A program made the translations under genes and the position numbers. From positions 1,114 to 65,113 of the forward strand of contig VBWE01000030.1 of assembly GCA_006218065.1 (NCBI GenBank): a stretch of DNA of 64,000 bases, given 5' to 3'. This document shows, one piece after another, positions 1 to 47,360 of this stretch; position 1 is the stretch's first letter, and every line of letters begins with the position of its first letter. A model generated the notes under the pieces. The model saw only the letters and a program-made list of their open reading frames with translations. It was not told the DNA's origin and searched no databases. The DNA is from Bacteroidota bacterium. Lineage in GTDB: Bacteria; Bacteroidota; Bacteroidia; Palsa-965.

Positions 1-30
1 GGTCGAGCAGTAGCCGAGACCGGACGAAAA

Positions 31-88
31 ACGTCGTCTCACATCTCAAGTCTCATATCCGGAAAAGGTACTGCGAAGCTTTAAAGGA
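31..88. repeat. heptad-iterated repeat, copy A
   Basis: Directly 3' of the aminotransferase gene. Positions 31-58 repeat the right arm of copy C (3481-3510), and the segment through 88 matches the reverse complement of the copy C left flank (about 3390-3448), including the GGAAAAGG and GCGAAGCTTTA words. Relative to copy C it lacks exactly one 7-bp unit (CTCATAT). The other arm, if present, lies left of the window. Confidence 0.8.
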
Positions 89-91
89 AAC

Positions 92-1285
92 TCACTGCAA
101 TTTCGCCAGCGCTTCTTTCATGCGGCGGAGCGCCTCGGTGAGTCTGGCATCCGAAGTGGCGTATGAAAAGCGGATATAATTGTCATCGCCGAAAGCTGCG
201 CCCGGAACAAGGGCCACGTGCGCCTGGTCGAGCAGGTAGCCGCAGAGATCGGTTCCGTTGCGGATAACCTGGTCGCCGTATTTTTTTCCGAAATAATACG
301 TTACGTCGGGAAAAACGTAAAATGCGCCCTGCGGAACGTTGGTTTTCAGCCCGGGAATTTCTTTCATCCCGGCAAGCACAAGATCGCGGCGGCGTTGAAA
401 TGCGTCGCGCATATAATGCGTGGTTTCGCCGGGCAGCAGCATGGCGGCGTGCATGGCTTTCTGCGTGATGGAGCAGGTGGCGCTGGTAAACTGGCCCTGC
501 ATTTTATCGCAGCCTTTCGCAATCCAGAGCGGCGCGGCGAGAATTCCTCCCCGCCAGCCCGTCATCGCAAAACCTTTTGAAACGCCGTTGATCGTGATGG
601 TGCGGTCGTAAATAAAATCGAACTGCGCCATCGCTTCGTGGCCGCCGATGAAGTTGATGTGCTCGTAAATCTCGTCGGAGATGATGTAGAACTCGGGATA
701 CTTCGCTACGACTCCGGCAATCGCTTTCAGTTCATCGCGGGTATATACGCTACCCGTGGGATTGCAGGGTGTGCTGAAAATCAGCAGCCGTGTTTTGGGT
801 GTGACCGCTTTTTCAATCTGCGCGGCGGTTACTTTGAAATCCGTATCAATGCCGGCTTTGATAATCACCGGTACGCCTTCGGCAAGTTTGATGAGTTCGA
901 TATAACTTACCCAGTACGGCGAAGGAACGATTACTTCATCGCCGGGATTTACAAGACTCAGCACGGCATTGGCGATGCTCTGCTTGGCGCCGGTGGAAAT
1001 CACGACCTGGTCCGCCGTGTAATTCAGTTTATTGTCGCGGCGGAATTTTTCGGCTACGGCAGCGCGCAGTTCGGCATAACCGGATACGTGCGTATAGTAA
1101 CTGAAGTTCCCGTCGATGGCTGATTTGGCGGCCTCTTTGATGGAATCGGGCGTCGGGAAATCGGGCTCGCCGAGGCTGAGGCTGATAATATCGACACCTT
1201 GTGCAATCAGTTCGCGGCTGCGTCGTGCCATCGCGATGGTCTGCGATTCACTCAGCCGGTTGATGCGGTCGGAGAGATGCGTCAT
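92..1285 (-). CDS. aspC: class I/II pyridoxal-phosphate aminotransferase, aspartate aminotransferase type
   Basis: The 397-residue protein should transfer amino groups between aspartate (or a similar amino acid) and 2-oxoglutarate in the cytoplasm. It shows the family landmarks in order: SLGEPDFPTP near the start, a STGAKQSI stretch that contacts the cofactor phosphate, STPCNPTGSVY, the SDEIYEHI segment whose Asp contacts the pyridine nitrogen, and NGVSKGFAMTGWRGG with the Schiff-base lysine. Length is normal for bacterial aspartate aminotransferases. The reading frame stays open upstream to about 1603, but the ATG at 1283-1285 begins the conserved MTHLSDRI N-terminus and the upstream extension is antisense to the next gene. 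It is transcribed away from the CFI-box gene. Exact amino-acid preference (aspartate, or a broader range including prephenate) cannot be told from sequence. Confidence 0.92.
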   Translation of the reverse strand: MTHLSDRINRLSESQTIAMARRSRELIAQGVDIISLSLGEPDFPTPDSIKEAAKSAIDGNFSYYTHVSGYAELRAAVAEKFRRDNKLNYTADQVVISTGAKQSIANAVLSLVNPGDEVIVPSPYWVSYIELIKLAEGVPVIIKAGIDTDFKVTAAQIEKAVTPKTRLLIFSTPCNPTGSVYTRDELKAIAGVVAKYPEFYIISDEIYEHINFIGGHEAMAQFDFIYDRTITINGVSKGFAMTGWRGGILAAPLWIAKGCDKMQGQFTSATCSITQKAMHAAMLLPGETTHYMRDAFQRRRDLVLAGMKEIPGLKTNVPQGAFYVFPDVTYYFGKKYGDQVIRNGTDLCGYLLDQAHVALVPGAAFGDDNYIRFSYATSDARLTEALRRMKEALAKLQ

Positions 1286-1363
1286 ATCCCTTTTTTGTGA
1301 AGCGGTAAAACTACTGTTTATATATACATTTGACAAACGCGAAATTTTTGCACCGGTATCCGC

Positions 1364-1924
1364 ATGAATAACCAGCTCAGCGAATTCGACAAACAACTGC
1401 TCGAACTTTGCCGCAAAGGCAGAACACTTGAAGCCGTAAAGCGATACACGGAAACGACTGGCGCCGGCCTCAAGGAAAGCAAAGACTATATAGACAGGCT
1501 GATGGAAAAGCCTTACGAGCCGGAGCCGCCCGATATGAGCAAACTCGACGAACGGCTGCTCGACCTGTGCCGGCAGGGAAACAAACTGGAAGCGGTAAAA
1601 CAATACCGCAATGCCACGGGCCAGGGACTTAAAGAGAGTAAAGATTACGTGGACCAGTTAGCCAAAGCACACGGCATCGAATTCAAAGGCGGCTGTTTCG
1701 TGGCTACGGCCTGTTTCGGCGATTACGATGCGCCCGAAGTTATTTTGCTCCGGCAGTTCCGGGATAAAAAACTGCTGACGAATACCGCCGGAAGGTTGTT
1801 TGTGAAAATATATTACGCCATTTCCCCGCCCATCGCCCGGCAGCTCGAAAAATCCGGCATCCTGAAACGTTTCGTCCGGAACTGTGTGCTGAAACCCTTA
1901 GTAAAACGGATCACCGGGAAGTAA
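1364..1924 (+). CDS. protein with two L7/L12 C-terminal-like repeats and a CFI-box C-terminal domain
   Basis: The 186-residue protein has two near-identical units, roughly residues 6-45 and 60-100, each of the form LLELC-KG-LEAVK-Y-TG-GLKESKDY. This matches the helix-turn region of the ribosomal protein L7/L12 C-terminal domain. It is followed from about residue 108 by GGCFVATACFGDYDAPEV and LLRQFRDKKL, which matches the CFI-box C-terminal domain (Cys-Phe-Ile/Val followed by ATA) seen in many bacterial proteins of unknown role. No signal peptide; cytoplasmic location is likely, though the C-terminus is basic and partly hydrophobic. The family assignment is from memory of motifs; no function is proposed. 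It converges on the next gene across repeat copy B. Confidence 0.75.
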   Translation: MNNQLSEFDKQLLELCRKGRTLEAVKRYTETTGAGLKESKDYIDRLMEKPYEPEPPDMSKLDERLLDLCRQGNKLEAVKQYRNATGQGLKESKDYVDQLAKAHGIEFKGGCFVATACFGDYDAPEVILLRQFRDKKLLTNTAGRLFVKIYYAISPPIARQLEKSGILKRFVRNCVLKPLVKRITGK

Positions 1925-2099
1925 ATATTTCCGATTGCCGATTTTGGATTTGCGATTGCATTATAAACATTAGCGCCTTCGCGTCTTAGCGGTAAAGTTT
2001 GTACTTCGTTTTCACCGCAGAGCCGAAGGGACGCAGAGTTTACGCAGAGATAAATCGCCAATCCAAAATCGGCAATCGGAAAATCGACGAAGTTTCGGA
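1925..2099. repeat. heptad-iterated inverted repeat, copy B
   Basis: Fills the gap between two convergent genes. Perfect 20-bp arms lie at 1931-1950 and 2060-2079. The left arm reads as 7-bp units (CCGATTG, CCGATTT, TGGATTT, GCGATTG). The interior (AGCGCCTTCGCGTCTTAGCG and a GCAGAG/CGCAGAG-rich return arm) forms a second imperfect hairpin and is shared with copy D at about 85-90% by eye over roughly 120 bp. It could act as a bidirectional terminator. Confidence 0.85.
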
Positions 2100-2705
2100 C
2101 TAGGATCCCCTGTATCGTGATTGCCACGAAGGACTTTGCATATCGCGCAGCAGGCGGAAAGCGGCCTCACCGAAAATAGGATCGTTGTACGATTGCGACA
2201 TGCCGTATTCTTTCAGCATATTGAACTGGCCTTCGGAAACGCCCAGTTTATCGGCCGCCCAGCCCGGGCCGGGATCATCTGCGCCCTGTTTGCGCTGGAA
2301 AGGATATTCGCCCCAGCGGAGTCGCCATAAATCGTCAATCACCGGACAATAGGCGGTAAAATCGTATTTGATGCCGCGGATGATGGTATCGAGCTGGTAT
2401 CCGCAGTCCTTGATCTCGTATTTCACGAAAAGATTTTCTTTTTTCGGGTTGGCTTCACTTTCCACCAGGCCCATGGCGATACTCAGGAAGTCGTGGCGGC
2501 TGATATTGATCTGCTCGTAACGAACCGATGGCCCGTTGTACACCCGGACGATTTTATAGGTAACCAGGCTGCTGTTTGCTCCGGGCATCAGGCTGAAACC
2601 GAGGTAAACCATATCAGGAGCTGCGTTTTCCTGTGCGGGAACAGGATTGACCGCCCGGGTACTTAAACCGGCCATGAGCAGGATAGAAAGAAACAGCTTC
2701 TTCAT
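2100..2705 (-). CDS. secreted protein of unknown function
   Basis: The 201-residue protein starts at the ATG at 2703-2705, giving MKKLFLSILLMAGLSTRAVN, a typical signal peptide with a likely cleavage before the mature part beginning around AQENAAPD. The mature protein is polar, with a DFLSIAMGLVESEANPKKE segment and a conserved-looking C-terminal WRLRWGEYPF ... FNMLKEYGMSQ region. It resembles Bacteroidota-specific exported proteins that I cannot assign to a named family. It lies alone on the minus strand, divergent from the 2850 gene and convergent with the CFI-box gene. An in-frame start six codons upstream would only lengthen the n-region. Confidence 0.75.
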   Translation of the reverse strand: MKKLFLSILLMAGLSTRAVNPVPAQENAAPDMVYLGFSLMPGANSSLVTYKIVRVYNGPSVRYEQINISRHDFLSIAMGLVESEANPKKENLFVKYEIKDCGYQLDTIIRGIKYDFTAYCPVIDDLWRLRWGEYPFQRKQGADDPGPGWAADKLGVSEGQFNMLKEYGMSQSYNDPIFGEAAFRLLRDMQSPSWQSRYRGS

Positions 2706-2849
2706 GGGGACAAATGCCGTCAAACCATAGTTTTACGCAATATCGCGCCGTTTTGTTGCGTCTTTTTTGGAAACCACGAACCGGAAATTGTATAAATTTA
2801 CGCCTCCGGCTGCAAAATCCACGCATAAAAGCCAGCCTGAACCACGTCT

Positions 2850-3380
2850 ATGAGTTTTGTCGAGATTGTTTACGACCTTCTGAAAATCCTGCTCCCGGCG
2901 GGTATCGTATTTGTGACCTGCTACTTCGTAGTGAAACATTTCCTCGATACGGAAACCAAACGCAGGCTTGCCGAGATCAGGCTGGCGAACCAGAATGTGA
3001 TTACGCCGGTGCGCTTGCAAGCTTACGAGCGCATTTCCATTTTCCTCGAACGTGTCAACCCGAACAGCCTCGTTCCGCGTGTGCATAAACAGGGCATGAG
3101 CGCCCGCCTGCTCCAGTCGGAACTGACCCGCGTCATCCGCCAGGAGTTCGATCACAACCTTTCCCAGCAGATTTACATGTCGAACCACGCCTGGGAAATG
3201 GTGAAAACCGCCAAAGAAGAAATTACCAAGCTCATCAACATCGCGGCTACCAAACTCCCGGATACCGCTACCGGCGCCGATCTCAGCCAGATGATCATCC
3301 AGATCTCGCAGCAGATCGATAAAATGCCGACGCAGGTGGCGCTTGATTATATCAAGAAAGAAGTAGGGCAGGTGTTTTAG
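2850..3380 (+). CDS. conserved Bacteroidota membrane-anchored protein (DUF7935-like)
   Basis: The 176-residue protein has one N-terminal transmembrane segment (about residues 8-29, ILLPAGIVFVTCYFVV) followed by a charged helical cytoplasmic or periplasmic region. The stretch LANQNVITPVRLQAYERISI, then FLERVNPNSLV and RQEFDHNLSQQIY, is strongly conserved in a Bacteroidota-only family that I recall as DUF7935. No catalytic motif is seen and no function is known to me. The gene converges on a lipoprotein gene, with repeat copy C between their stop codons. Confidence 0.8.
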   Translation: MSFVEIVYDLLKILLPAGIVFVTCYFVVKHFLDTETKRRLAEIRLANQNVITPVRLQAYERISIFLERVNPNSLVPRVHKQGMSARLLQSELTRVIRQEFDHNLSQQIYMSNHAWEMVKTAKEEITKLINIAATKLPDTATGADLSQMIIQISQQIDKMPTQVALDYIKKEVGQVF

Positions 3381-3389
3381 AGGAAGGTT

Positions 3390-3513
3390 CCTGTAAAGCT
3401 TCGCGGTTCCTTTTCCGGATATGAGATATGAGACTTGAGATGTGAGACTCCGTGTACTTGCGGATGATTCATGTCTAACGTCGTCTCACATCTCAAGTCT
3501 CATATCTCATATC
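3390..3513. repeat. heptad-iterated inverted repeat, copy C
   Basis: Perfect 31-bp inverted arms at 3418-3448 and 3483-3513, separated by 34 nt. Each arm is a run of 7-bp units of the pattern AGANNTG (AGATATG, AGACTTG, AGATGTG on the left). The right arm includes base 3513, the last base of the stop codon of the downstream minus-strand gene. The left flank (3390-3417) is shared, inverted, with copy A. A strong candidate for a bidirectional terminator at this convergent junction. Confidence 0.9.
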
Positions 3514-4310
3514 TATGATTTCTTAATCGCCACCTTCACCGGCTTCTCTTTCACATCAGTAACCGCGCCCAGTTTTCCATCGGTAACCTGCCCGGTATAA
3601 CGTGCTTTTTCCAGCATTTCGAAATCTTCGCTGCCTTCGTCATTATTGATGCTGCGCGCTTCGAGCGTAAAACGGCCGTCTTTTTCCAGGTTGCCCTGGA
3701 TCTGTGCGTTCATATATACCGGTGCGTCGGCTGCACCCATCAAACGGCCCAGCAGGAAACCACCGCTCACAGCGCCGTCGCGGATGATTGTGAAATAAAC
3801 GGACTTGTCGTGCGAATAGGGGCAGGCTTCGTATGATTCGGTTCGCAGTCCCCAAACCAGCAGCGTAGTATGTTCGTCCATCACCAGTTTATCCAGGGCG
3901 TATGCGTTCGCGTATTTGATCATGCCGATATCCAGTCCTTCGCAGTACTTCGCATAGCCGTTTTTGCTTTTGATTGAATCGATTTTATAGAATGATTTCA
4001 GATCCCATTCGGCCGCATCCGTCAGTTCATGTTTTGCCTGTACAGAGGAGAGTATTTTAACTTCTGCGGCCGAAAGCGAGTCGGCTTTGGTAATATCTTC
4101 TATCCGGAGGCTGTCCACTTTATAAGGCCAGGTATCCGAAGCTTTGAATCTTGCGGAAAGCGCTTCCATTTCGGGACTGAGTTTGACAGTCGCAACGGTA
4201 TCGCCGCCGGTTTTCGCGCTGTCACCGGTTTTAGAATTTTCCTCTTTACCGCCGCAGGAGCAGAGCATGCTGATGGAAAGGACCAATGCGGAAATCGAAA
4301 TGAGTTTCAT
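3513..4310 (-). CDS. lipoprotein of unknown function
   Basis: The 265-residue product starts at the ATG at 4308-4310, with [20 protein letters not shown] as signal peptide and lipobox (L-C-S-C). A Ser/Thr/Lys/Glu-rich linker follows (about residues 21-45), then a folded domain with no motif I recognise. A conserved-looking part is [15 protein letters not shown] and [19 protein letters not shown]. The frame is open far upstream of this start, but that part is antisense to the mutase gene and lacks a signal sequence, so the lipoprotein start was chosen. The product should sit in the inner or outer membrane facing the periplasm or surface. The gene stands alone and is divergent from the mutase gene. 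Confidence 0.8.
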
Positions 4311-4409
4311 AAGGTGGTACTGGTTTGGATGACAAGTATAAGAAATACTCCAGTTTCCGGAGTTCTCCTGCTGCCGATTATGCCTATTTTTGCGGCAAAT
4401 CATTTCATC

Positions 4410-5987
4410 ATGGCCAAGCCGGGAGAAGAGCAGGAACGCAAAGCGAAATTCATCACCGATTCCGGGATCGAGATCAAACGCATCTATCCGAAAACGGATA
4501 TTCCCGAAGAACAGCCGGGCGAATTTCCGTTCACGCGCGGAGTGCAGTCGAGCATGTACCGGGGCAAACTCTGGACCATGCGCCAGTATGCCGGTTTTTC
4601 CACCGCCGAAGAATCGAACAAACGTTACCATTACCTGCTGAAGAACGGAACCACGGGACTTTCCGTCGCGTTCGACCTGCCCACGCAGATCGGTTACGAT
4701 TCGGATCATGCGTTTTCGGAAGGCGAAGTCGGTAAATCCGGTGTAGCCATCGATTCGCTCCGCGACATGGAAATTTTATTCGACGGCATCCGCCTGGATG
4801 AAGTGACTACATCGATGACGATCAATTCCACGGCTTCGATTCTCCTGTCGATGTACATTGCGCTGGCGAAAAAGCAGGGCGCGGACGTGAAGAAAATTTC
4901 CGGCACGATCCAGAACGATCTGCTTAAAGAATACGCTGCGCGCGGCACGTACATTTACCCGCCGCAGGCTTCCATGCGCATCATCACGGATATTTTTGCC
5001 TACTGCAGCGCGGAAGTGCCGAAATGGAACACGATTTCCATTTCCGGTTACCATATCCGTGAAGCGGGTTCTACGGCAGTGCAGGAACTCGCGTTTACAC
5101 TCAGCAACGGCAAAGCGTACCTGGAAGCGGCGATCGCCAAGGGACTCGATATCGACGTATTTGCCAAACGGCTTTCCTTTTTCTTCAACGCGCACAATAA
5201 TTTTTTCGAAGAGATCGCGAAGTTCCGCGCCGCGCGGCGCATGTGGGCGCAGATCGTGAAAGAACTCGGCGCAAAAGATCCGCGTTCGATGATGCTGCGT
5301 TTTCATACGCAAACCGGCGGATCGACGCTTACCGCGCAGCAGCCGCAGAACAATATCGTGCGTGTTACTTTGCAGGCGCTTTCTGCCGTGATGGGCGGTA
5401 CGCAGAGCCTGCACACCAACGGCTTCGATGAGGCGCTGGCCCTGCCCACCGAAGAGGCTGCCCGCATCGCTTTGCGCACGCAGCAGATCATCGCACATGA
5501 AAGCGGGGCCGCCGATATGGTCGACCCGATGGCCGGTTCCTGGTTCGTGGAATCACTGACGAACGAAGTGGAAGCCGCGGCCTGGGATTATATCCGTAAA
5601 ATTGATGCGATGGGCGGTGCGGTGGCTGCGATCGAGCAGGGTTATATGCAGGACGAGATCGCTGCATCTTCATACAAGTACCAGAACGAAATACAGCGCG
5701 AAGAAAAAATTATCGTCGGCGTAAATAAATTTGTGGTCGAAGAAAAACCGGCTGAAAACCTGTTTACCGTGGATGATTCCATCCGTTTGCAGCAGATGGA
5801 AAAACTGAAGCAGGTAAAAGCATCGCGCAATGCGACTGAAGTACAGCAACTGCTGCAGCGCCTGGAACAGGCCGCCCGCGGCGACGAAAACCTGCTGCCG
5901 CATATTCTCGGTTCGGTGGAAGCTTACGCCACGCTCGGTGAAATTGCCGATGTGCTGCGTAACGTTTTCGGCGAATACAAGAACTGA
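4410..5987 (+). CDS. methylmalonyl-CoA mutase large-subunit catalytic domain (separate-subunit type)
   Basis: The 525-residue protein is the acyl-CoA-binding TIM-barrel part of a B12-dependent acyl-CoA mutase, which interconverts methylmalonyl-CoA and succinyl-CoA in propionate metabolism. Visible family landmarks are [11 protein letters not shown] (Tyr60), [10 protein letters not shown] (Gln168), PPQASMRII (Arg190) and [12 protein letters not shown] (His215). The Tyr/Arg pair is the methylmalonyl-type signature, as opposed to the Phe/Gln pair of isobutyryl-CoA mutase. No C-terminal cobalamin-binding domain (DxHxxG) is present: the protein ends at about 525 residues, so it needs a separately encoded B12-binding subunit, and none is in the window. 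The ATG at 4410-4412 was chosen because upstream sequence is antisense to the divergent lipoprotein gene. Its TGA stop is part of the arm of repeat copy D. Confidence 0.93.
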
Positions 5988-15068: not shown

Positions 15069-15494
15069 ATGGAAAACAGCGTGGACTCTATCCGTACTAC
15101 CTATCATTTCATGGAATGGTATGCCGAGCATGTCGTTCGCGTGCGGATCGACGACGGCGCCGAGATCGGGATGGAAGAGGCGCTTGCTTCACACGAAGCG
15201 ATGAAAAAACTCACGGGGGGACGTTTCTGCATACTCCTGATCGACGTGCGCAACACCAATTTCAATGTAGCTTCTGAAGTACGTGCTTTCGCTTCGAGCG
15301 AAGAAGGAAGCTCGACCCGTTATGCCGATGCTATCCTGGTGGATTCGTTGTCCAATGCCCTGGTAGGTAATTTCTATATCCGCTTCAACAGGCCGCGCAT
15401 CCCGACACGGATTTTTAAATCGGAAGCCAAGGCGATGGAATGGATAAAAGTCCAGATTGAAAAAGCACAGAAAAGTTCCATGTTCCAGGTTTAA
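15069..15494 (+). CDS. small STAS-like protein (DUF7793-like)
   Basis: The 141-residue soluble protein resembles a Bacteroidota family with a SpoIIAA/STAS-like alpha/beta fold: YHFMEWYAEHVVRVRIDDG, GGRFCILLIDVRNTNF, EVRAFASSEEGSSTRYADA, and VGNFYIRFNRPRIPTRIF. No catalytic motif is evident; relatives are thought to be regulatory, but that is not shown. The last four codons (M-F-Q-V) and the TAA stop lie in the left arm of repeat copy F, so the present C-terminus was probably set by that element. A possible -7 box lies just upstream. Confidence 0.75.
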   Translation: MENSVDSIRTTYHFMEWYAEHVVRVRIDDGAEIGMEEALASHEAMKKLTGGRFCILLIDVRNTNFNVASEVRAFASSEEGSSTRYADAILVDSLSNALVGNFYIRFNRPRIPTRIFKSEAKAMEWIKVQIEKAQKSSMFQV

Positions 15495-15540
15495 AGTTTC
15501 AAGTTCAACATGGAACATGAAACTTTAAACCTGGAACATG
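15479..15540. repeat. heptad-iterated inverted repeat, copy F
   Basis: Perfect 23-bp arms at 15479-15501 and 15518-15540 with a 16-nt loop. Words are GTTTAAA, GTTTCAA, GTTCAAC and similar, 7-bp periodic. The left arm overlaps the last codons and stop of the 15069 gene. The right arm ends 10 nt before the stop of the convergent gene. Confidence 0.9.
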
Positions 15541-15550
15541 AAACGTTGAA

Positions 15551-21102: not shown

Positions 21103-21199
21103 AATTTGACGATTTGAAAATTGAGCCAATTTGAAAATGAAGAGAACGAGGGCATTTTCAAATTGAATCATCTTCTCAATTTTCAAATTGTCAAATCGG
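21103..21199. repeat. heptad-iterated inverted repeat, copy G
   Basis: Outer 23-bp arms (21103-21125 and 21175-21197, 21 of 23 matching) enclose perfect inner 13-bp arms (21127-21139 and 21153-21165). Words are AATTTGA, CGATTTG, AAAATTG. The right edge abuts the TAA stop of the T9SS cargo gene (21200-21202). Confidence 0.85.
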
Positions 21200-30373: not shown

Positions 30374-30482
30374 GAACTTCACTGGTCGGCATAAATAGTC
30401 GCATGGAGTCGTCGTCTTCAGACGACGACTAGCGAAGTTCCCGGAAGACGACTCCACGCGACTATTTATGCCGACCAGTGAA
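30374..30482. repeat. long palindromic element with nested alternative hairpins
   Basis: Outer arms of 36 bp (30378-30413 and 30447-30482) match except for one base. An inner perfect palindrome, AGTCGTCGTCT-TC-AGACGACGACT (30407-30430), overlaps the left outer arm, so the two folds compete. GAACTTC (30374-30380) also pairs with GAAGTTC (30434-30440). It is not built of 7-bp words, so it is a different class from the heptad elements. It lies between the WG-repeat gene and rpmB and could be a MITE/REP-like element or a terminator. Confidence 0.85.
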
Positions 30483-35728: not shown

Positions 35729-35960
35729 GCAAAAGGCAAAAAACAAAAAGCAATGAAAATCAAAAAAACAAAGGGCAAAGGCAAAAAATAGTAAACGTCA
35801 CACTGAGCGGAGACGAAGTGTGTGTAAAACAGACCTGACGTCTTTTTATTTTTTGTTTTTTGTGAGTTGCCTTTTGAAACAGGCCCTTCTGCAAAGCAGT
35901 CTCCGGTTATTTGCCTTTTGCCCTTTGCTATTTGCTTTTGCTTTTTGAATAAACGACCGG
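35729..35960. repeat. heptad-iterated inverted repeat, copy L
   Basis: Left words GCAAAAG, GCAAAAA, ACAAAAA, GCAATGA and related; right words TTATTTG, CCTTTTG, CCCTTTG, CTATTTG (35907-35934), then CTTTTG and CTTTTTG. Between them lies a GTCACACTGAGCGGAGACGA hairpin (35797-35823). The right half is flanked by a 14-bp direct repeat, GTGTAAAACAGACC (35822-35835 and 35962-35975). This accounts for most of the 375-nt gap between DUF4295 and ftsY. Confidence 0.82.
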
Positions 35961-37020: not shown

Positions 37021-39681
37021 CTAAAACTTCGCTATTAAACGTACACTAAGCTGCCGGTTGGTGAGATAATTCGGAATGCCGTACAAACGCCCGGTCACGT
37101 CTTTTACCCAGTAATACGAAACGGTATTGTTTACCTGCAGCAGGTTGTACACTTCGGCTCCGATCCAGAGCGATTTCATGAAACGGAACGGGTTGGATTC
37201 TTTCAGCGGCTTTTCTTCTTTGATCACCTGGTAGGAAAAACCGATATCCACGCGGCGGTAAGGAGGCATGCGCAGAACGGCCAGGTGCCGCTGGTGGTTG
37301 GGTGGTCCGAAAGGAAGACCCGTACCGACAACCAGCCCGAGGCTCATCTTGCAGTCGGGAAGCATAGGCAGGTAATCCTGGAAGTACATGGAAAAATTCA
37401 CGATCTGGTCCGTAGGACGCGGAATGAAACCGGGAGCATTGACGATACTGTCGACCGCGATATTATTCACCGTGTAGCCGGGATAAATCGTATCGCCGTC
37501 GCTGTTCAGGTAAATCACGAACCGGTCGTTATATAAATTTTCACGCGTGCGCAGGATGGAAAGATTTACCCACGAATCCGCTTTGCGCACAAACTGTCCG
37601 TTCAGTTTGAAGTCGATACCGTACGCGTAACCGTAAGCCTGGTTTTCGCCGAAATAGCGCAGGCGGACATCCGTTACTTCGTAAGGCACCAGGTTGTCGA
37701 GGTATTTGTAATACGCTTCGGTGATGAAACGGAAAGGCCGGTTCCAGAGTTTGAAATGAATATCGCCGCCGAGTACGGCGTGGACAGCGGTCTGCGCTTT
37801 TACATTCTTGTGCACGGTTCCGTTGAAATCGCGCAGTTCACGGTAAAACGGGGGCTGGCTGTAAAGTCCGCCCGCTACGCGGAAAGAAGCCTGGCGTTTC
37901 CAGTGCGGTTTCCAGGAAAGATTCACGCGCGGGCTCACGATCGTTTGCCCGTTCATGTTCCAGTAATGGCTGCGCACGCCGGCATTCAGTTCGAGCTGCG
38001 AAGTGTCGCGCAGTTTCCAGTTCCAGATATGCTGCACGAAAGCCATCGCCCGCGACGAAGCCAGTTCTGCTTTGCCTTTGATCAGGCCCTGCACTTCGAG
38101 CACTTCCAGCGGGTAGAACGGGATCGAATAACCTGCCGAATCCACCAGGCCCCATTCGCTCAGCTCGTCGGTAATCTGCTCGTGCTGGTAACGCAGTCCC
38201 CAGGAAAGAATGGAATTATTCGCGTTGTACGTGTAATCGCCTTTATGCTCACCGTTAATGACAAGTGCATCGAGAAAGTTCCGCGCATGATTAAGATATC
38301 CGCCCACGCCGCGGTTAAAAGCCACCTGCCCGAAAGTCGGTTTTCCGAAATCCGTTTCCAGCTGATCGATATAATATGCGCCTTCGATATCGAAGGTTTC
38401 ATTTTCGGAAGAGAAGAAAGAGGAACCGATAAATCTCAGCCGAAGCCGTTCGTTCGGGTGCATGTAATTCAACGCAAGCGCATTGAAATTCGTTTTGAAA
38501 CTGTTCACTTCCTGCCCCTCGAAAAACACCGTAAAGCGCAGCGCCTGGTTCAGCGTGCCGAATTCGGTTTCGCGCGTTTCGGGTCGCAGTTCGTATTTGT
38601 TCTGCGCGTAATTGCCGAGATAATCGAGCCGCCAGTGTTCGGTAAAATTATACGTCAGGAAAGCCTGCACATCGGTGAACGAAGTGGTGTAATCGCCGCG
38701 CGTATCGAGTTTGTTCAGCAGGTAACGGTTGCTTTTCTGCCGCGCGCCAAGCATCCAGGTAAACCGTTCGTCTTTCGAAATGCCTTCCACTTCAAAACTT
38801 CCACCGAGCAGTCCCGCGGAAAAAGTGCCTCCGAATTTTTTCGGCCGGCGGTAGGTGATATCGAGCACCGACGACATGGCATCGCCGTATTTCGCTTCAT
38901 AGCCGCCCGCGGAAAAAAATACGCGATCCACCATGTCGCCGTTCACGATGGTCAGTCCTTCCTGCTGCCCGGAGCGCGTGATCAATGGACGATACACTTC
39001 GATGCCGTTGATGTAAAGTTTGTTTTCGTCAAAACTTCCGCCGCGGATGGAGTATTGCGAACTCAGTTCGTTGTTTACCGAGCCGCCGATCACCAGGCGG
39101 AGCGCACCGATGAAATCGCCGCTGGGGCTGGGAATATTCTGGATCGGCCCGGGAGGAAAATAATCGCCGGTGCCGAGTACGCCATACACTTCGGTGGTAT
39201 CGCCGCCTTTGGGTTCGAGCTCAATCGCGAAATTTTTTATTTCCCCGGCCGTGAGCTTTACGGGAACATCATACCGTTTGAACCCGGTAAGCTGTACGGT
39301 GATCATCAGCGGCTGGCCTGCCGGGACGGTGAGTGTGAAATTTCCTTTAGCGTCGGTGAACGTTCCCTTGCTTTTTCCGCCGAGAATATACCCGACTGCG
39401 GCCGATTCCACAGGGCTGCCTTCCGGACCGGTGACGCGGCCGGTAATGGTTGCTTCCTGCGCGAGAGCCGGCAGGGTGAGTGCGAAAGCAAACAGGAGGA
39501 AAACGGAGCGTATCAGTTTACAGTTGGCAGTTGGCAGTTTCTGTTTTACAGGGATGTCGTCAAAAACCAGGAACTTCCGCTTATACAAGACAAAATTGCC
39601 AACTGTAAACTGCAAACGGCCAACTGCAAACCGGAATAACGACTTGATTGAAAAACGAATCTTTGAAATTTCCGCGGGCAT
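37021..39681 (-). CDS. TonB-dependent outer membrane receptor with an interrupted signal-peptide region
   Basis: The 886-residue protein has a signal sequence ending LTLPALAQ, an N-terminal carboxypeptidase-regulatory-like domain (ATITGRVTGPEGSPVESAAV), a plug domain (SSQYSIRGGSFDENKLYING, GYEAKYGDAMSSVLDITYR) and a beta-barrel ending VRLIAKF. It takes up an unknown substrate in an energised way. The start chosen is the ATG at 39679-39681 (MPAEISKIRFSIKSLFR), 17 nt after the preceding gene. Residues 18-56 are encoded by repeat copy N; without them the sequence joins to IRSVFLLFAFALTLPALAQ, a normal signal peptide. The longer open frame upstream (to 40407) is antisense-frame overlap with the 39699 gene. 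Alternative: a rare CTG or ATA start after the repeat. Confidence 0.9.
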   Translation of the reverse strand: MPAEISKIRFSIKSLFRFAVGRLQFTVGNFVLYKRKFLVFDDIPVKQKLPTANCKLIRSVFLLFAFALTLPALAQEATITGRVTGPEGSPVESAAVGYILGGKSKGTFTDAKGNFTLTVPAGQPLMITVQLTGFKRYDVPVKLTAGEIKNFAIELEPKGGDTTEVYGVLGTGDYFPPGPIQNIPSPSGDFIGALRLVIGGSVNNELSSQYSIRGGSFDENKLYINGIEVYRPLITRSGQQEGLTIVNGDMVDRVFFSAGGYEAKYGDAMSSVLDITYRRPKKFGGTFSAGLLGGSFEVEGISKDERFTWMLGARQKSNRYLLNKLDTRGDYTTSFTDVQAFLTYNFTEHWRLDYLGNYAQNKYELRPETRETEFGTLNQALRFTVFFEGQEVNSFKTNFNALALNYMHPNERLRLRFIGSSFFSSENETFDIEGAYYIDQLETDFGKPTFGQVAFNRGVGGYLNHARNFLDALVINGEHKGDYTYNANNSILSWGLRYQHEQITDELSEWGLVDSAGYSIPFYPLEVLEVQGLIKGKAELASSRAMAFVQHIWNWKLRDTSQLELNAGVRSHYWNMNGQTIVSPRVNLSWKPHWKRQASFRVAGGLYSQPPFYRELRDFNGTVHKNVKAQTAVHAVLGGDIHFKLWNRPFRFITEAYYKYLDNLVPYEVTDVRLRYFGENQAYGYAYGIDFKLNGQFVRKADSWVNLSILRTRENLYNDRFVIYLNSDGDTIYPGYTVNNIAVDSIVNAPGFIPRPTDQIVNFSMYFQDYLPMLPDCKMSLGLVVGTGLPFGPPNHQRHLAVLRMPPYRRVDIGFSYQVIKEEKPLKESNPFRFMKSLWIGAEVYNLLQVNNTVSYYWVKDVTGRLYGIPNYLTNRQLSVRLIAKF
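39514..39630. repeat. heptad-iterated inverted repeat, copy N, inside a coding region
   Basis: Left words CAGTTTA, CAGTTGG, CAGTTGG, CAGTTTC (39514-39541); right words GCCAACT, GTAAACT, GCAAACG, GCCAACT, GCAAACC (39598-39632). The 117-bp element has a length divisible by three and no stop in the receptor frame. Confidence 0.88.
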
Positions 39682-47174: not shown

Positions 47175-47360
47175 CAAAAAACAAAAAGCAAAATGCAAAC
47201 GGCAAAAAGCAAACAAATCGGTTTATGGAAAAAGGAATTGCCATTTGCCATTTGCTTTTTGCTTTTTATTAAGTACAAAATGCAAACAGCAACACGTGAT
47301 AAAATGAATACAGGAAAAAGGAAATTGCTTTTTGCATTTTGCTTTTTGCCTTTTCATTTG
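47175..47360. repeat. heptad-iterated inverted repeat, copy O (two modules)
   Basis: Module 1: six perfect units CAAAAAA, CAAAAAG, CAAAATG, CAAACGG, CAAAAAG, CAAACAA (47175-47216) against CCATTTG, CCATTTG, CTTTTTG, CTTTTTA (47241-47268). Module 2: CAAAATG, CAAACAG, CAACACG against CTTTTTG, CATTTTG, CTTTTTG near 47330-47355. Module 2 contains the chosen start codon of the next gene. Confidence 0.88.

Follow-up and report, generated by a model that had tools for sequence, protein, structure and literature searches.

The window analyzed here is a stretch of 64,000 nt from a Bacteroidota bacterium (contig VBWE01000030.1, positions 1,114 to 65,113). At its start lie two intergenic palindromic elements, A and C, in which a short cargo stands between two arms built of 7-nt units (heptads) that read TCTCANN in the outward direction. 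The left arm of A is situated just upstream of the window. The remaining parts of both elements are given below.

1 to 61, plus strand: right part of element A, comprising the cargo end (hairpin ggtcgagcagtagccgagacc), the right arm and the outer end TCCGGAAAA
37 to 57, plus strand: right arm of element A, three TCTCANN heptads
60 to 92, plus strand: A flank (outer end of the element), matching the reverse complement of the C left flank
3385 to 3417, plus strand: C flank, matching the A right flank in reverse complement
3418 to 3448, minus strand: left arm of element C with four heptads, TCTCANN in the outward direction
3449 to 3482, no strand: cargo of element C, with the same ends as the A cargo and without its nested hairpin
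3483 to 3513, plus strand: right arm of element C with four heptads; it adjoins the stop codon of an open reading frame (ORF) on the minus strand, 3513 to 4709

A sequence-only reading of this stretch, which had compared the right arm of A with the left arm of C, claimed that the two copies differ by exactly one 7-bp unit. Global alignment of A (31 to 92) with the reverse complement of the C left arm and flank (3385 to 3453) bears this out, giving 56 identities, 6 mismatches, and a single 7-column gap that corresponds to one TCTCATA (= CTCATAT) unit; the ungapped inverted match spans 56 nt at 86%. Read in the same direction, A and C have identical left arms of four units each (28 of 28 positions), and over left arm plus cargo start 60 of 63 positions match, with an N involved in one of the three mismatches. 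Since the longer form is found in the left arm of A and in both arms of C, the short one is the right arm of A, the sole arm without the unit. A and C, identically oriented and separated by about 3.4 kb, are paralogous elements, not alleles.

The same reading took the 7-bp word to be what is gained or lost. A single pair of paralogous arms is insufficient for this on its own; length differences in whole multiples of 7 nt nearly throughout the family, described below, partly support it. Indels of other lengths, which that reading had named as contrary evidence, do exist as rare cases: read by eye, there are 6-nt units at L044, in the right arm of L088 and at L255, and an 8-nt unit at L273. The word CTCATAT by itself does not exceed chance level in the window (7 matches versus 4.2 expected; at least 7 in 13 of 100 shuffles). 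Arrays of the form TCTCANNTCTCANNTCTCA, on the other hand, occur at 95 places in the 5.26-Mb genome versus none for the reversed pattern.

Seven-nucleotide spacing and mirrored arms in this genome

A and C are members of an intergenic family of about 32 elements with outward arms, mostly of four TCTCANN heptads. Parsing gave 34 rows, 31 of them with two arms. Of the three one-armed rows, one adjoins a full element, another is truncated by a contig end, and the third belongs to an element split by a 6-nt unit, whose outer run was entered by hand in the mirror-order and arm-mismatch counts below. Among the 62 arms, 38 have four units, 13 have three, 5 have two, and 6 have five to seven. The variable letters after TCTCA are mostly TA, AA, AG or CA, and the elements share an outer end whose consensus is close to TCTGGAAAACAGACT and fades out within about 16 nt. 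The cargo is variable (17 to 151 nt) and of several unrelated kinds under the same arms. Every paired match lies within 260 nt, with no gene between the arms. With its terminal inverted repeats, short non-coding body, and many copies, the family has the build of a miniature inverted-repeat transposable element (MITE). Besides, contigs C10 and C34 (L031-L059) end inside one TCTCANN element, seemingly as halves of the same one.

The units stand head to tail as a heptameric tandem repeat. Successive TCTCA words in the 34 element regions are spaced by 7 nt in 167 cases, by 14 in 5, and by 13 in 2 (172 of 174 at 7 or 14), both 13-nt spacings being one place counted in two overlapping regions. As the elements were found by a 7-spaced pattern, this count leans to 7; free-gap and period scans are less biased. 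The free-gap pattern TCTCAN{0,14}TCTCA matched 187 places genome-wide versus 13 for its reverse, with a spacing of 7 or 14 in 87 of the 100 matches listed; of the 13 exceptions, 12 are located outside the elements. Left and right arms have equal unit numbers in 13 of the 31 two-armed elements and differ by one unit in 12 and by two to five in 6. With few exceptions, then, arm length changes by whole units, as differences among copies and not as events. Furthermore, the variable letters run in the same mirrored order in both arms (1.56 within versus 0.64 between elements; 0 of 20,000 permutations).

The 7-nt period extends to other words. In a period scan of the window plus twenty genomic stretches of 20 kb each (464 kb in all), lag 7 gave 23 stretches, 22 of them true and one a run of N, whereas other lags gave at most 6, except lag 14 with 13; an order-3 Markov copy gave none at lag 7. 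Seventeen of 50 strong inverted repeats have arms with a best lag of 7 or 14. Judged by eye, the formulas of the other arm words of this genome include GATTNNC, GTTYNAN, ATGTTTM, GCAAAAR, CAGTTNN and CAAANNG. Also by eye, GATT-type arms enclose a GCGCCTTCGCG cargo at three places, and GCAAAA-type arms a ACGTCACAC...GAAGTGTG cargo at three places. Five such features lie in the window, none assigned to a strand.

1928 to 2082: heptad-armed palindrome, GATTNNC-type words, 95-nt cargo
15475 to 15544: heptad-armed palindrome, GTTYNAN-type words, 6-nt gap
35729 to 35947: GCAAAAR-type heptad stretches flanking a cargo with ACGTCACACTGAGCGGAGACGAAGTGTGTG
39514 to 39612: heptad-armed palindrome, CAGTTNN-type words
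47175 to 47354: heptad-armed palindrome, CAAANNG-type words, plus a third run in which the word is inverted

The quantisation of length in 7-nt steps, the mirrored letter order, the spread of the family, and the co-existence of several words are direct observations in this genome. The outward strand of the TCTCANN arms is poor in G (4% G, 31% C), which does not hold as a general rule: 16 other heptad palindromes sampled have 16% G and 19% C. The window further contains an inverted repeat of 36 nt, nearly perfect, whose arms are 33 nt apart and have no 7-nt period (30378 to 30482), and an inverted repeat whose arms have mixed 7- and 8-nt spacing (ATTTGANN; 21104 to 21196), possibly a decayed heptad palindrome. 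Two further dispersed palindrome types of the genome, starting with GCCTCACCTCTTTCC and GACTCACCCCC (L061, L078, L079, L065, L068, L072), likewise lack the 7-nt period.

Heptads in relatives and the ruvX/holB site of Mucilaginibacter

At the locus of copy C, 8 of 9 loci read in same-family relatives have no heptad palindrome, and the neighbouring gene differs in several of the nine. The remaining locus, L088, carries one built from a different word; at this position L089, from the same genus, shows a gap of roughly 35 nt. A period scan of 20 stretches from 20 relatives (379 kb) gave 8 periodic runs at lag 7, of which one is merely AT-rich, 5 at each of lags 8, 14 and 21, and at most 2 at any other lag. 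TCTCANN triples occur in 5 of 12 family genomes (95, 27, 22, 8 and 2), in two of them with other variable letters as judged by eye. A scan of named genomes returned at least 112 TCTCANN-type stretches, and 80 of these loci were examined, 55 of them from Bacteroidota by an assignment made by hand from record titles. In the flanks of the 80 loci (505 kb, hit region excluded), lag 7 gave 59 stretches versus 11 at lag 8. Some TCTCAAA arrays in Mucilaginibacter-like genomes lie inside a recurring coding-looking stretch, not between genes (L141, L159, L172, L173, L182, L203).

Three Mucilaginibacter loci among the scan matches fall in the same gap, between two divergent genes that we take, from the look of their proteins and not from a family search, to be ruvX and holB. 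The ruvX gene was matched in 76 of the 80 Mucilaginibacter genomes searched, with 6 of the 76 ruvX-matching genomes left out of the reading. The 76 ruvX loci read gave 70 delimited gaps (6 had no recognisable holB start) and, after removal of 3 duplicates, 67 distinct regions. A word could be called in 53 of the 67: TCTCA in 38, TCTCTAA in 4, TCTAA/TCGTA in 3, ACTCA in 3, ACAAC in 3, GCAACC in 1 and ACTCACT in 1, the labels TCTCTAA, GCAACC and ACTCACT (six regions) being set by hand; the other 14 are weak. On a holB tree, few of whose forks are resolved and for which one region was too short, the eight word labels need 20 changes, the minimum possible being 7, and the starred branches alone force 8 changes for TCTCA and 3 for ACAAC. 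In other words, heptad arms recur at one orthologous site with words that differ between species. The 7-nt step is retained as well: across the 67 regions, 135 of 140 ATCTC spacings are multiples of 7. Species-to-species indel lengths (888 pairs pooled) showed no excess of multiples of 7; their identity measure was too lax, and they were discarded as uninformative and counted neither way.

The middle of the gap carries TAnnTTTG, presumably the Bacteroidota -7 box, on the ruvX strand in 48 of 67 regions (shuffled mean 5.2), and the arms thus seem to surround a native promoter. G on the outward strand amounts to 8% in the ruvX leaders and 5% in the holB leaders. Left and right arms resemble each other more within a gap than between gaps (19.0 versus 14.5; 0 of 20,000 permutations), mostly because both arms share a word. 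L262 and L250, whose holB starts are 98% identical, have the same cargo and left arm and a different right-arm word; hence arms are exchangeable singly. Cargo likeness in close pairs was 10.2 with the same word and 8.2 with different words against a background of 8.8, and since many same-word sisters have unlike cargo, we draw nothing about cargo following the word at this site. At L248, a right arm of about 45 nt stands in four tandem copies before ruvX.

The local word tends to agree with the word used across the genome in the tested genomes, 20 in number and selected after the site word was known; long arrays were counted several times in these tallies. Where the site word is ACAAC, the genomic triple counts are 43, 39 and 21 for ACAAC and 0, 0 and 9 for TCTCA; where at least one site arm has TCTCA, they are 25, 51, 17 and 27 for TCTCA and 0, 0, 0 and 2 for ACAAC. 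One-sided rank tests in 19 genomes gave 0.003 and 0.011. For TCTAA/TCGTA-like sites, the searched word form occurs at 10 (G097), 11 (G037), 1 (G109) and 0 (G072) places; the TCTCA-site genomes G033 and G095 have that form at 20 and 8 places, mostly mixed with TCTCA units. Counter to this tendency, G089 is rich in both words, and G067 has 17 TCTCA matches with another word at its site.

Origin of the heptad arms

The explanation that we favor, tentatively and as the least demanding one, is 7-nt slippage combined with copying between arms and between sites. Arms would lengthen and shorten by whole units through slippage. The folded palindrome could then allow copying from arm to arm, by template switching or hairpin conversion, which would keep the arms of an element alike. 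Word variants, single arms or whole elements may spread among genomic sites by recombination with other copies, and this spread would let each genome drift toward its own word dialect. In its favor stand the 7-nt spacing, the mirrored unit order, the excess of period 7 over all other periods, the lack of G-U preference among arm mismatches, the single-arm change of L262, and the strong predicted fold of the copy C single strand. Several points weigh against this explanation. We infer slippage, template switching, and between-site copying from comparison of copies, no event having been witnessed. Slippage alone leaves unexplained why a unit has two variable and five fixed positions, although the five fixed letters were in the search pattern, so that this split is partly selection. 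An inverted repeat surrounds the array in only 18 of the 80 examined loci; therefore, mirrored arms are not general for the TCTCA word. At the ruvX/holB site, mirroring is nearly gone when the word is fixed (24.2 versus 23.5 in the 33 gaps with TCTCA on both sides; 940 of 20,000 permutations), and strong in-register mirroring there was accordingly dropped.

It is possible, though rather doubtful, that the elements are non-autonomous mobile elements of a MITE- or REPIN-like kind, with the heptad arms as terminal inverted repeats and a transposase acting in trans. Such mobility would suit the roughly 32 intergenic copies with their common outer end, the shared cargo ends of A and C, the two families in which word and cargo travel together, and the L088 palindrome where L089 is empty. 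However, the closely paired arms enclose no gene, unrelated cargos occur inside the same arms, and the ruvX/holB arms surround an apparent native promoter and can change singly, as in L262. Nor is a RAYT gene flanked by the repeat: no period-7 stretch lies within about 1.5 kb of the two Y1_Tnp genes of this genome, and RAYT-driven mobility was rejected on that account. Cassette mobility explains the family of this genome, not the promoter-centred site in Mucilaginibacter. What would explain that site is a sequence-specific factor that reads heptads in 7-nt steps and whose word shifts between species, the sites following as dialects: arms persist there under a changing word, and this word matches the genome-wide one in the chosen genomes. 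A binding factor has been proposed for TAACTGA repeats before start codons, according to the accessible part of that report (PMC4679880). We nevertheless consider such a factor quite unlikely, as none is known, many words co-exist in this genome, G089 and G067 depart from the expected match, the genomes were picked after their site words were known, and arm copying between sites predicts word agreement too.

The very stable predicted stem of copy C (−35.3 kcal/mol for the single strand, z −10.7) and its position between convergent ORFs would fit an RNA hairpin acting as a terminator or mRNA-end stabiliser, yet this is highly improbable. By a crude ORF caller, 20 of the 34 rows lie between tandem genes, 6 between convergent, and 6 between divergent ones, with 2 at contig ends; this resembles the background of 192 gaps of at least 60 nt (115 tandem, 32 convergent, 45 divergent), shows no enrichment at gene ends, and led us to reject terminators. 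At divergent sites, the two arms fall in different transcripts. Arm-to-arm mismatches on the transcribed strand of elements between tandem genes, with orientation labels typed by hand, comprise 4 G-U, 6 A-C, and 18 others. The lack of G-U preference favors a DNA-level process, and selection on an RNA stem was rejected. Besides, an Rfam search of the window gave no match above the gathering score.

Known heptameric repeats and the meaning of the heptad arms

REP, BIME and REPIN sequences are short intergenic palindromes in many copies, which the present elements resemble. The descriptions consulted for REP, BIME and REPIN mention no heptad arms, and no RAYT gene stands beside the heptads here. 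DNA uptake sequences of Neisseriaceae are single fixed words read by an uptake receptor, with dialects; here, too, short genome-wide words differ between related species, but they form arrays rather than single fixed words and are known from sequence alone.

Heptameric repeats have been described in cyanobacteria, Beggiatoaceae, and some Bacteroidetes (STRR and TAACTGA repeats), and indels in 7-nt increments were seen between two Cyanothece strains, as stated in the accessible part of the report (PMC4679880). The TCTCANN arms share with them the 7-nt unit, the intergenic and genome-wide distribution, and the degenerate mixtures of heptamers. In contrast, the same portion of that report describes the repeats as direct (169 sets direct, one indirect in one genome), whereas the arms here form inverted pairs that mirror each other across a cargo, and several words are in use side by side. 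The GGGNATC repeats of Xanthomonas and Nostoc, as far as the consulted text describes them, are likewise heptamers with a variable letter, lie between genes, and prefer four units, a preference tied to G-quadruplexes (PMC4692102). Four units also prevail in the TCTCANN arms (38 of 62), which have no G-runs; with the low G content of their outward strand, a G-quadruplex as the cause was rejected. The BrickBuilt MITE of Porphyromonas gingivalis is another tandem repeat in a MITE-like intergenic Bacteroidota element; in the excerpt available, its unit is 23 nt and the repeat lies in the body (PMC4596501), in contrast to the mirrored arms here. Heptameric repeats, 7-nt indels between strains, and the four-unit preference were thus already in print, to judge from these partial sources (PMC4679880, PMC4692102). 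Neither mirrored heptad arms nor the replacement of a heptad word at a fixed site turned up in the literature searched, a weak negative that leaves most subscription journals uncovered.

To the question of why 7 nt is favored for longer bacterial repeats, polymerase slippage is the published answer, as given in the accessible text (PMC4679880). A site that lasts, arms that mirror each other, and a word that changes between sister species make this question testable, because the changes to be expected between strains differ among slippage, arm copying, mobility, and a word-reading factor. It is conceivable, although unlikely, that some Bacteroidota have a genome-wide heptad code, in which intergenic sites and outward arms are long kept while the word is swapped, usually in both arms and at many sites together. 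If true, conserved sites with unconserved sequence would suggest a factor acting on DNA in 7-nt steps, as reader or writer, whose word changes between species. Were such a factor behind the heptads, Bacteroidota genomes would possess a sequence-specific organisation of a new type.

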